From: Candidatus Sysuimicrobiota bacterium CSP1-3
Lineage (GTDB): Bacteria > Sysuimicrobiota > Sysuimicrobiia > Sysuimicrobiales > Humicultoraceae
DNA length: 34,430 bases
Assembly (NCBI GenBank): GCA_001443485.1
Contig: LDXQ01000011.1
Location: forward strand, 1 to 34,430
Reading direction: 5' to 3'
Part shown: positions 1 through 28,384 of the stretch, one piece after another
How positions within the stretch are numbered: the first letter of the stretch is position 1
Layout of the letters: each line of letters opens with the position of its first letter
The notes under the pieces: generated by a model
Told to the model about the DNA's origin: nothing
Databases searched by the model: none
Seen by the model: the letters and a program-made list of their open reading frames with translations, nothing else
Made by a program: the position numbers and the translations under genes

Positions 1-371
1 AGCCACAGGGGCGTATCGGGCACGAGCTCCTCGACGGCGCGGATGACGCTCACCGCCCAGGCCGGCCGCGTCCACACGGACTCGTGCGCCAGCGCGAGCA
101 GGTTCAGCGACGTGTCCAGACGGAGTTCGCCCGCGTCCATCAGCAGCCCGGCGACAGACGTGCCCGCCCGGCGGGCCAGCAGGAGCAGCGTCTCAACTGA
201 AGGGTACGAGCGCGCGGTTTCGAGCAGGCTGACGAAGCTCTTCGAGAGGTCCGCCCCGGCCAGTTCGGCCTGGGTCAGCCCCATGCGGCCGCGAGCGCGC
301 TCGAGCCGCTGTCCGAAGGCGACGATCCAGCGGGTCCGCGCAGTGTCAATTGTCTTCTGTGGCTTGACCAA
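1..371 (-). CDS. XRE/Cro-type helix-turn-helix transcriptional regulator (C-terminus off window)
   Basis: Reading the reverse strand from a TTG at 371 gives an open frame to the window edge, so at least 123 residues. Residues about 16-75 are a classic XRE DNA-binding domain: FGQRLERARGRMGLTQAELA, then a recognition-helix region SKSFVSLLETARSYPSVETL. Residues after about 80 (LNLLALAHESVW...AWAVSVIRAVEELVPD) look like paired amphipathic helices, as in TPR-containing RRNPP-type regulators, but too little is visible to assign that family. No ribosome site precedes the TTG. A CATAAT -10-like box lies only 8-13 nt upstream (379-384), so a leaderless transcript is possible. It lies 97 bp downstream of, and on the same strand as, a small exported-peptide gene (468-599). 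The HTH call is secure; the start and the role of the C-terminus are not. Confidence 0.8.
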   Translation of the reverse strand, partial: MVKPQKTIDTARTRWIVAFGQRLERARGRMGLTQAELAGADLSKSFVSLLETARSYPSVETLLLLARRAGTSVAGLLMDAGELRLDTSLNLLALAHESVWTRPAWAVSVIRAVEELVPDTPLW

Positions 372-467
372 GGATAAATTATGTTCGACGGCCGGGGCAG
401 AACGTCCTGCAGGGACAGCGGGTCCCCCAGGTTTCGTCGATCTTCCTGCTAAGCTCCCGCGAACTGA

Positions 468-599
468 CTACCCTCCGTTCTCGCCGGGCAGCCCACCCGA
501 GATCTCCACGGGCGGCGTACTCACCGCTGCCAGGCCGGTTCCGAGCAACGCCAGCGTGAGCAAGACAGCACCAAGAAGCATGCGGACTTTGTGCGTCAT
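468..599 (-). CDS. Small exported-looking peptide (43 aa), candidate signal peptide pro-form
   Basis: The ATG at 599 is preceded by a near-ideal ribosome site (GGGAGGG, 7 nt spacing), which favours it over the upstream start at 656. The 43-residue product begins MTHKVRM, then has a hydrophobic stretch LLGAVLLTLALLGTGLAAV typical of a signal peptide or single membrane helix. It ends in a short polar, Gly/Pro-rich tail STPPVEISGGLPGENGG. The layout of positive N-terminus, hydrophobic core and short tail resembles Phr/Aim-type pro-peptides. It lies directly upstream of an XRE regulator on the same strand. No homologous family is recognised. That it is translated is well supported by the ribosome site; the signalling role is inference. 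Confidence 0.6.
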   Translation of the reverse strand: MTHKVRMLLGAVLLTLALLGTGLAAVSTPPVEISGGLPGENGG

Positions 600-676
600 G
601 CCAATCCCTCCCGATTCGGTTGAATTTGGGGGACCCGCCACTGGCCCGGTTTCCACACGCGTCCGGCGATTCCTTT

Positions 677-695
677 CTAATGTTTAGTAATTATA
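677..695 (-). promoter_or_regulatory. Promoter -10 box and short palindrome upstream of the small peptide gene
   Basis: An AT-rich island in GC-rich surroundings holds a perfect TATAAT on the minus strand (690-695). An 11-bp interrupted palindrome CTAAACATTAG (677-687) follows where transcription would begin. No good -35 box is visible. The palindrome sits where a repressor would act, and the nearby XRE protein is the obvious candidate. The -10 call is good; the operator is inferred. Confidence 0.45.
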
Positions 696-730
696 GGTTT
701 TGGGCATAGGGGTCTCTGGAGGCCCCAGCC

Positions 731-25378: not shown

Positions 25379-28300
25379 TTACCGGATTTTCCGTTCCTCC
25401 CAGAGTTCCTCTACCAGCAAACCGTAATACTTGTCCACGTGGTCTTCCTTGATGCGCTTCAGCTCGCCCTTGGGGAACATGGAGAGCAGCTGCCAGCCCG
25501 TCGCCAGCGTGTCCTCGATGGAGCGGTCCGTCTGTCCCTGATTGAGGAACTCCTTTTCGAAACGCTCCGCGAACTGCAAATAGAGCCGGTCGCGAGTCGT
25601 CAGCGCCTCCTCGCCGATGATCGCCACCAGCCGCCGCAGGTCCACCCCGTTGGCGTACGAGGCAAACACCTGGTCCTTCACGTTGGAGTGGTCCTCGCGG
25701 GTGCGCCCCTTCCCGATCCCGTCGTTCATCAGCCGGGAGAGACTGGGCAGCGGGTTGATCGGTGGGTAGACGCCTTTGCGGTGCAGCTCCAGGGAGAGGA
25801 CGATCTGTCCCTCGGTAATGTAGCCGGTCAGGTCGGCGATGGGGTGGGTGATGTCGTAGTCGGGCATCGTCAGGATCGGGATCTGGGTGATCGAGCCCTT
25901 GCGGCCCAGGATCCGGCCGGCGCGCTCGTAGATCGTCGCCAGGTCGGTGTACATGTAGCCGGGGTAGCCGCGGCGGCCGGGGATCTCCTCCCGCGCGGCG
26001 CCGATTTCGCGAAGACTTTCACAATTAGATACGATCAAACCATTGTCGACGACGAAGTTATGCGCGGGGTCGACGGTGATGTCGTAGACGAATCCATCCT
26101 GAGGAAGACACTCGTCGATGGAGACGACTACGTCTAAGACGGTCGCATCGTGGGTCAGGGCGACGAGTCGCGCCAGCTCGGGATCCTCAGAATCGCCTCG
26201 AGGCCGGAGGACCTCAGCCCACCTCCGAAACGCCGCTCTCGATGTCCGCCTCGATCCTCCCTCAACCTGCGAGATCGTGCTGGATGGGCCGAGATCGGCC
26301 CCTTTCACTCCGTAGCGCTCTCTTAGGGACCGCAGAAGCCGCCCGCACACCCGGGGGGCCAGGTCGAAGCCGCTGGCCACCTCGGCACGATCCACATAGA
26401 AAGTCCGGGCCTCGTCCAATCTCCGAGCCTTGGCCAAGTGCCCCGCTCCCACGGTCTCGGCGAACGCCCTGACATAGGGCCCGCTCTCGATGACGACATC
26501 ATGGACCCGACTGGTCCCGAAGTCACTCGTGCTCGTGCGCGACTGCACGCGGCTCACGATCCCCAACCTACGCAGCAACATCTGGAGGCGTGTCGCGCGC
26601 CTGCGGTCGGCAGTCGTCAACTGGATGTGTGGCGCCCGGCCTCCTGAACCTCCAACGCACGACCCGTCCCCGTCGAAGTAGCCTCGCAGAAAAGCCGCAA
26701 TCAGCGGCTCGGCCAGTCGGAATACCGGTCTCAGATCGTTGGGGATACCCAGACCCTTGGCCACCTGGACCAAGACACGGCTGTTTACCCGCGCCATCCA
26801 GACGCCATCCTGGTTCCGGTGCAGCTGTATGGTGAGGCCAGGGAACAAGGACCGGAGTGTCCCCATAAAGCGGTCAACAAGACCGCGATCACGATTGGTG
26901 AACGACAGATAGTAGGCGCCCTGACCCTGATTCTCGTAAAGGGTTCCGTCGGCGGCGACCAAGCCCAGGATGTAGAGCAGATCCTCGTTCACACCAACCG
27001 CGGCGACGCGCAAACCCTCGTGTCTGCCAGAAGTTATCCGCTCGACCTCGGGCATGAAGAACGCCAAATCGGTCTCCGCGGCTCGAGCGATCGTCTGAAG
27101 GTCGCCGACGGTGCAGCGACGTTTGCGGGACGCATCGGTCAGGCGCCCGTACGGCAGCCCCAGCATCAACGCGGCCTTGCGCACGCTGCCAAACTTCTCC
27201 CGCAGTAAATTGTTGACCACGCCGTTCTTCATGTGGACGAAGAAGGATTCTGTGGCACCCGCTGCAGCCAGCAGTTCCAGCACCGTCGGGCGCCAGGGCT
27301 GATCCACCGGGATCCTCCTGGCACTGTAGATCTCGTTTCCTGGCCGAAGCCTGTCCGCGGGAATCATCTCCGGACCGTTCTGCGTATCGACGAGAATCTT
27401 GTGGTCCGCGGTGACGCGCAGTTCACCCCCGGAGCGCGTCCTGATCCGCAGTAGTTTCTGCGGAGCGGGCAGCCTGAAGACGTGGCTCACTCGCCCCGGC
27501 TGCACCTGCCCGCTATCAAACGACACAGCGGCTGCGCCGTCAGGATGCTCCACCAGATCTTTGATCGGGATGATCTGACCATCCCCCAGAATGACCTCTG
27601 AATCACCGTCCAGACAGTAGTTGGTCATGTCCGTGAGAATGACCAGCACTTGCATGTCCAGGTCGAAGGCCAAGTACTGCGCGGCGGTCAGCGCCAGGCG
27701 CGGCGTCATCAACCGCTCGATCGCCGGGTCGTCGGCGAGGTTCTGGAAGACGACGCTGCGCGCCAGCGCCCCGGTGGACTCGAACTGCTCGATGAAGTAA
27801 GCCGCCTCGCGCTGCGTGATGCCCATCGCGGCGAAGACCACGGCGAACTGTTCCGCCTCCCCCAGGACCTTGGCCTGGCGGGCAATCTGCGCCGCCACCT
27901 CGTTATGCGGCAGCCCCGCGCCGGAGAAGAGCGGCAGCTTCTGGCCGCGCACCAGGGTGTTCAGCCCGTCGATGCTAGAGATGCCGGTCTGGATGAACTC
28001 CTGCGGCCGCTCCCGGGCCACGGGGTTGATCGGGGCGCCGATGATGGGCAGGCGCTTCTCCGGGATGAGCGGCGGCAGGCCGTCGATGGGATCGCCGCGG
28101 CCGTTGAACCGCCGGCCGATAATCTCGCGGGCGACGCCGAAGCGGGCCACCTCCTCGCGCAGGCTGACGGAGGTGCTGGCTACGTCCAGACCCGTGGTCT
28201 CCTCGAAGACCTGGATGACGGCGTTGCGCTCGGAGATCTCGATGACCTGGCCGCTGCGCACCGACTCGTCGGGCAGGTGGATGTTGACGATGGCGCCGTA

Positions 28301-28384
28301 GGAAAGGTCCTTGGCGCCCTCCACGAAGAGCAGCGGCCCCGAGATGTAGGAGATCGAGCGATACCGCTTTGTCGCCAGTTCCAT
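25379..28384 (-). CDS. atpB: V/A-type ATPase subunit B precursor interrupted by an intein
   Basis: 1001 residues in one frame. Residues 1-256 and 788-1001 together make a normal 470-residue B subunit: start [61 protein letters not shown], then [36 protein letters not shown]. Residues 257-787 are an intein inserted exactly between Tyr256 and the Cys of the invariant TDMTNYCE motif. ATG at 28384 with GGAGG upstream. B is the non-catalytic nucleotide-binding partner of A in the A3B3 head. Function requires splicing. The A subunit has no intein. Confidence 0.97.
26024..27616 (-). mobile_element. Intein with LAGLIDADG homing endonuclease in the V-ATPase B subunit
   Basis: 531 residues. Splicing blocks: Cys1 in [20 protein letters not shown] (block A), TADH with His72 (block B), [22 protein letters not shown] at the end (blocks F and G) with terminal Asn531, followed by extein Cys. 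The penultimate residue is Ser instead of the usual His. The endonuclease has both dodecapeptide motifs, [11 protein letters not shown] (Asp223) and [11 protein letters not shown] (Asp315/317), so it is probably active. Two extra helix-turn-helix-like segments flank it: residues about 133-185 ([20 protein letters not shown]) and about 424-470 ([17 protein letters not shown]). They may add DNA contacts. Confidence 0.95.

Follow-up and report, generated by a model that had tools for sequence, protein, structure and literature searches.

The window, the whole stretch of 34,430 nucleotides that was analyzed, begins with two genes on the minus strand: a small open reading frame (ORF) for a 43-amino-acid propeptide, with a hydrophobic signal at the N terminus and a Gly/Pro tail, and downstream of it an XRE regulator (Table 1). 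This arrangement had been proposed in the original prediction and is confirmed by the ORFs, by conservation, and by enrichment across the receptor family. The strong ribosome site ascribed to the peptide gene is borne out as GGGAGGG, and the short gap to the receptor start also stands, although it measures 96 bp and not 97 bp. Pfam HTH_31/HTH_3 score above cut-off in the XRE ORF. As noted originally, the receptor C terminus is missing; position 1 is the end of contig C11, so the regulator was cut by the assembly and not by sampling.

Table 1. Features of the peptide-receptor locus in the window
Feature	Position	Strand	Details
XRE/TPR receptor gene, N-terminal 123 aa	1..371	-	start codon TTG, position 371, where the two closest copies have ATG; truncated at contig end
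Helix-turn-helix domain, receptor residues 18-74	150..320	-	Pfam PF13560/PF01381
Predicted exported propeptide gene, 43 aa, MTHKVRMLLGAVLLTLALLGTGLAAVSTPPVEISGGLPGENGG	468..599	-	ATG at 599, stop 470..468
Proposed signal word GGLPGENGG, propeptide C terminus	471..497	-	alignment by eye
Shine-Dalgarno GGGAGGG of the peptide gene	606..612	-	
Putative promoter/operator block ATGCCCAAAACCTATAATTACTAAACATTAG, with TATAAT and small palindrome	677..707	-	alignment of three copies
TATAAT, exact	695..690	-	no -35 hexamer seen with it
Small palindrome CTAAACATTAG	687..677	-	CTAAACTTTAG in the C30 copy; lost in G001 (CTAAACCTCTG)

The draft genome of the host (G000, 2.5 Mb) holds a second copy of the module on contig C30, with 82% DNA identity over window positions 3–715; it comprises a complete receptor (L034:808-2196:-) and its own 43-amino-acid peptide. 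In a relative from the same genus (G001), a single-copy locus matches both flanks, that of C30 past the receptor and that of the window past the peptide; The modules at the end of C30 and the start of C11 differ in their peptide tails, as would follow from duplication with divergence or from a mixture of strains.

The peptide ORF is conserved in both copies, with 60% amino acid identity in C30 and 72% in G001, and pairwise dN/dS is 0.17–0.49, calculated from few sites. Searching the host order for the window peptide at other loci returned only these two known relatives, and Pfam, NCBIfam, and Rfam gave no match informative on the peptide. Of the promoter features predicted originally, the exact TATAAT holds; the palindrome is present but poorly conserved, being altered in C30 and lost in G001, and it was rejected as a conserved operator of the window clade because G001 lacks it. 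The block around it, ATGCCCAAAACCTA..CTAAAC, is conserved across the three copies. A different palindrome, GGCCGTYCGGC, lies 35–51 nt before the start of seven other peptide genes (L155, L159, L179, L195, L196, L198, and L201), compared with 0.02 expected in shuffles; it is a candidate operator in two clades other than the window's, and common descent may explain the sharing.

Receptor architecture

The original prediction proposed looking for TPR repeats in a full-length regulator, and these are present. The complete C30 receptor has an N-terminal HTH followed by TPRs according to Pfam, and its AlphaFold model (mean pLDDT 91) consists of five HTH helices (residues 14–77) and then 18 helices that form nine TPR-like hairpins. 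A receptor from Chloroflexota (pLDDT 87.5) is likewise modeled as an HTH plus nine hairpins. RRNPPA receptors have a five-TPR core with an optional N-terminal HTH and an optional four further TPRs (PMC12700828); this architecture was found in the C30 copy and the Chloroflexota relative, and the window copy shows the HTH alone.

In Foldseek searches, the best matches were generic peptide-binding TPR proteins (LGN), and the bacterial matches of the C30 model included Rap(pLS20) and NprR. The Chloroflexota model matched Rap phi3T, PlcR-PapR-DNA, RapF, RapH, RapI, and Rap-CSF. RRNPPA structures are thus the leading bacterial regulators, behind generic TPR proteins. No sequence model specific to any named RRNPPA subfamily, whether Rap, NprR, PlcR, Rgg, AimR, or another, was matched: Pfam and NCBIfam gave generic HTH and TPR matches only, and phmmer against the PDB matched no RRNPPA chain. 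Because generic TPR proteins rank first in Foldseek and no RRNPPA-specific sequence family was matched, we treat homology to RRNPPA in particular as a possibility.

Gene pairing and tail words

A profile built from 17 receptors was searched against 43 genomes of the host order and gave matches in 39 of them (E <= 1e-15; TPR-only proteins included). Relatives occur in genomes labeled Armatimonadetes, Bacillota, and "Terrabacteria group bacterium ANGP1" (Ca. Segetimicrobium genomatis, of the Sysuimicrobiota, the former CSP1-3; PMC11604079), and the window is assigned to the Sysuimicrobiota through these relatives. Enrichments of Sysuimicrobiota under chemoautotrophic conditions have been reported (PMC11604079). 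Eighty-nine distinct HTH-bearing genes from the 43 genomes were examined for paired small ORFs of 25–110 amino acids, which were scored for ribosome site, positive N terminus, hydrophobic core, and tail; signal peptides were judged by a home-made hydrophobicity and ribosome-site rule and not by SignalP. A qualifying exported ORF was found upstream in the sense direction in 40/83 cases, compared with 9/296 for control genes (Fisher p ~2e-22), and five of the nine positive controls were themselves XRE-TPR loci. The final tally was 45/89 genes with an exported small ORF directly upstream, which adds genes with little upstream sequence (e.g., C30) and two found by eye (G004 and G034) and omits one two-helix membrane protein. 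An adjacent propeptide gene, as in RRNPPA systems, is thus present, with the signal peptide assigned by the simple rule above.

Roughly half of the XRE-TPR genes lack a nearby exported ORF, which indicates that a peptide gene next door is not required for these receptors to function. These unpaired receptors fall mostly into clades of their own, and those that were re-examined had no peptide ORF on either side. In one family of unpaired XRE-TPR genes (L183, L184, L186, L188, and L033), a gene for a cupredoxin-like exported protein precedes the receptor gene; the sequence scanned there had been joined by hand in its first part.

Homologous receptors also occur in Chloroflexota genomes and in one bin labeled Actinobacteria, and the receptor is present in 6/29 genomes of the order of G061. 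Upstream of each of the eight distinct receptors of the Chloroflexota type lies a gene for an exported peptide with a Cys-bracketed C-terminal tail (AGPCPPADFGC, AAGPCPPADFGC, AAGPCWGGDIGC, AGPRPPCVPGWGC, ADPCPSSGSGGC). The small ORF is therefore found beside receptor homologs in two phyla, a comparison that had been suggested with the original prediction. Neither of the two outcomes named there as refuting, a regulator lacking a peptide-binding domain or a small ORF not conserved beside regulator homologs, was observed.

The tail word is duplicated in 19/45 peptides, in two to six copies. Mature RRNPPA pheromones are 5–10 amino acids long, usually C-terminal, and sometimes duplicated; the C-terminal words predicted here span ~8–18 amino acids. 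Many words begin directly after Ala, as with a signal peptidase cut. Exact internal repeats of 7–22 amino acids were detected in 17/44 scripted peptides and in 0/2000 shuffles of each. Examples are AGDSLPGGS (twice), AGDTWPGGG (twice), AGDVGPGQNGP (twice), and AGHGDGELLSGGW (up to four times). Two more repeat peptides were recognized by eye, GDDNGPGAVYGLPPLVPQ in five to six copies in G034 and APELPGEN twice in G004; in alignment by eye, the APELPGEN unit and GGMPGENGG of G001 both resemble the GGLPGENGG of the window, which reads SGGLPGENGG with its preceding residue. Other predicted tail peptides include GDSLPGGS (G020 receptor), GHGDGELLSGGW, and GPCPPADFGC.

Between the repeat copies of the 17 scripted cases, 80/198 codons are changed by 87 nucleotide differences, all of them synonymous, whereas ~27% would be expected to be synonymous if changes were random. 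The repeats had been chosen for exact identity, which makes the formal P value smaller than is warranted, but recent DNA duplication cannot explain repeats with such synonymous-only divergence, and the word is maintained by selection. Retention of exact tail repeats at the amino acid and not the DNA level supports the peptide quorum-sensing module that was first suggested. Similarity among the words also parallels receptor phylogeny (Mantel r 0.62, n = 43, 0/2000 permutations), which is the kind of co-variation of tail and receptor sought originally. A single genome can hold two or three distinct words; in the window genome there are three modules, whose tails end in GGLPGENGG, AEPPGGNGG, and GRGDMDSFGAAVRN.

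Spurious ORFs are frequent in GC-rich genomes, and the window ORF alone would be weak evidence that these frames are anything other than chance openings in GC-rich upstream DNA. We regard that explanation as very improbable, as it is contradicted by the antisense (0/83), downstream (0/82), and control counts, by the synonymous-only divergence of the repeats, and by conservation in two phyla.

Neighboring genes, host machinery, and the proposed circuit

The window otherwise carries chromosomal metabolic and housekeeping genes. The arbitrium-like option raised in the original prediction was rejected: in addition to these neighbors, the pair is syntenic in the sister species, and no phage genome matches the receptor. 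A plasmid-borne Rap-like origin was also set aside, with one weak TPR match only. A V/A-type ATP synthase subunit B gene elsewhere in the window (25379–28384, minus strand) contains an in-frame intein that includes a LAGLIDADG endonuclease, according to matches to the Pfam models Intein_splicing and LAGLIDADG_3.

In the clade to which the window receptor belongs, an aldehyde dehydrogenase gene lies 3' of the receptor. In the GHGDGELL clade, a patatin-like phospholipase frame starts 3–14 bp after the receptor (L150, L149, and L151, in G008, G009, and G002, respectively), and in G007 (L052; word GHGDGGAVG), a patatin-like frame lies 65 bp after it. A PF04185 phosphoesterase with a Tat-like signal is found 3' of the receptor in the GDDNGPGAV clade (L160, L162, and L179), with Pfam run on the L160 copy. 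The downstream genes are possible outputs of the receptors, linked to them by position.

The patatin-like phospholipase or phosphoesterase genes may also mean that some of these loci make secreted factors, and exported small ORFs beside regulators are common in bacteriocin loci. The small ORF could then be a bacteriocin-like or other extracellular effector, with the HTH-TPR regulator sensing something else. We consider this improbable because the tails are very short, strongly polar or glycine-rich, exactly repeated, and tied to receptor clade, and inspection by eye of the neighboring ORFs revealed no modification, immunity, or export genes.

We instead consider it likely that the pair is a pheromone-type peptide and the HTH-TPR receptor that reads it, in an RRNPPA-like signaling system. 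Once expressed, the 43-amino-acid propeptide would leave the cytoplasm through Sec, and cleavage by signal peptidase, possibly with another protease too, would yield a short Gly/Pro-rich C-terminal peptide; we infer that processing of the window propeptide releases about GGLPGENGG. An Opp/Dpp oligopeptide permease would re-import the peptide, which may then bind to the cytoplasmic receptor, in the groove formed by its nine TPRs, and alter DNA binding by the receptor's N-terminal HTH. The DNA target most likely includes the promoter of the receptor's own operon. Of the components that an RRNPPA-like circuit would require, the host genome has two signal peptidase I genes and 14 SBP_bac_5 places for oligopeptide-binding proteins, one of them ~8 kb from the C30 receptor; oligopeptide-binding proteins are common in bacteria. 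The presence of several modules with different words in one genome leads us to propose that they serve as separate private channels.

The host also encodes Omp85 and is therefore probably diderm. Action between cells would require the peptide to pass through an outer membrane, and a Sec-exported peptide would reach the periplasm first. The peptide might stay in the producer's own periplasm, with the receptor reading mature or unprocessed peptide in the cytoplasm as a measure of secretion or envelope state and not of cell density. Such self-monitoring needs the same machinery as signaling. We judge it unlikely, though a more serious alternative than an extracellular effector: the presence of several modules per genome, each with its own word, and the tandem copies of the word are better explained by specific signals than by an export gauge, and porins could pass peptides of 8–10 amino acids. 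Passage of the signal between cells is nevertheless held with clearly less confidence than pheromone-type signaling as such.

Relation to known peptide-receptor systems

The best reading of these data is an RRNPPA-like peptide-signaling family in new phyla. Like NprR-NprX and AloR, the pairs combine an XRE HTH and nine TPR-like hairpins with an adjacent propeptide, predicted to be Sec exported and to carry a C-terminal signal, and NprR is among the Foldseek matches. They differ in occurring in other phyla, in a probably diderm host, with no sequence-level family match; in their new words (GDxxPG, LPGEN, GHGGGELL, and GPC..GC); and in gene order, with the peptide gene first in all scored cases except L065, from a bin labeled Firmicutes, where it is downstream of the receptor. 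The original prediction held that the receptor gene usually comes first in known systems, but in RRNPPA systems the propeptide gene can be on either side of the receptor gene (PMC9765709).

Rap-Phr systems share the nine-TPR fold, propeptides that repeat the pheromone, and several paralogous pairs per genome, whereas Rap has no HTH, acts on proteins, and belongs to other lineages. The tandemly duplicated pheromones of Bacillus and its phages have propeptide repeats of 1–4 copies (PMC11343458), compared with up to 5–6 here. PlcR-PapR likewise pairs an HTH-TPR receptor with an exported propeptide, and the PlcR-PapR-DNA structure was matched in Foldseek. PlcR controls phospholipase genes, and two receptor clades here lie directly upstream of patatin phospholipase or PF04185 phosphoesterase genes; PlcR, however, has five TPRs and not nine, and lipase regulation here is suggested by gene position. 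AimR-AimP also consists of an HTH-TPR receptor and a propeptide. Many AimR-type peptides carry a DPG motif (PMC12700828), which has a possible counterpart in the GPG words of some tails here, a resemblance that may be chance; AimR-AimP is encoded by temperate phages, whereas no phage context or match was found here.

RRNPPA cytoplasmic peptide quorum sensing has been attributed to Gram-positive Bacillota and to the phages and plasmids of these bacteria, and the largest survey covered complete Firmicutes genomes and viruses only (PMC10075063). We found no report of RRNPPA-like pairs outside Bacillota in the open-access literature that was searched. In our estimate, the chances are even that RRNPPA-type communication is not a Bacillota invention but is widespread in diderm Sysuimicrobiota and present in Chloroflexota, with signals acting across or within the outer membrane; in this same evenly balanced reading, the Sysuimicrobiota and Chloroflexota pairs would be either a deep sister group, and so an outgroup to root RRNPPA, or of independent origin. 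Whether the RRNPPA ancestor had five or nine TPRs is an open question (PMC12700828), for which these receptors would be candidate outgroups. If the interpretation is correct, the range of RRNPPA would be widened to an uncultured, Omp85-bearing phylum and to Chloroflexota; an Omp85-bearing host would be new ground for an RRNPPA-like circuit, and dozens of peptide-receptor pairs with predicted words are ready for synthesis.
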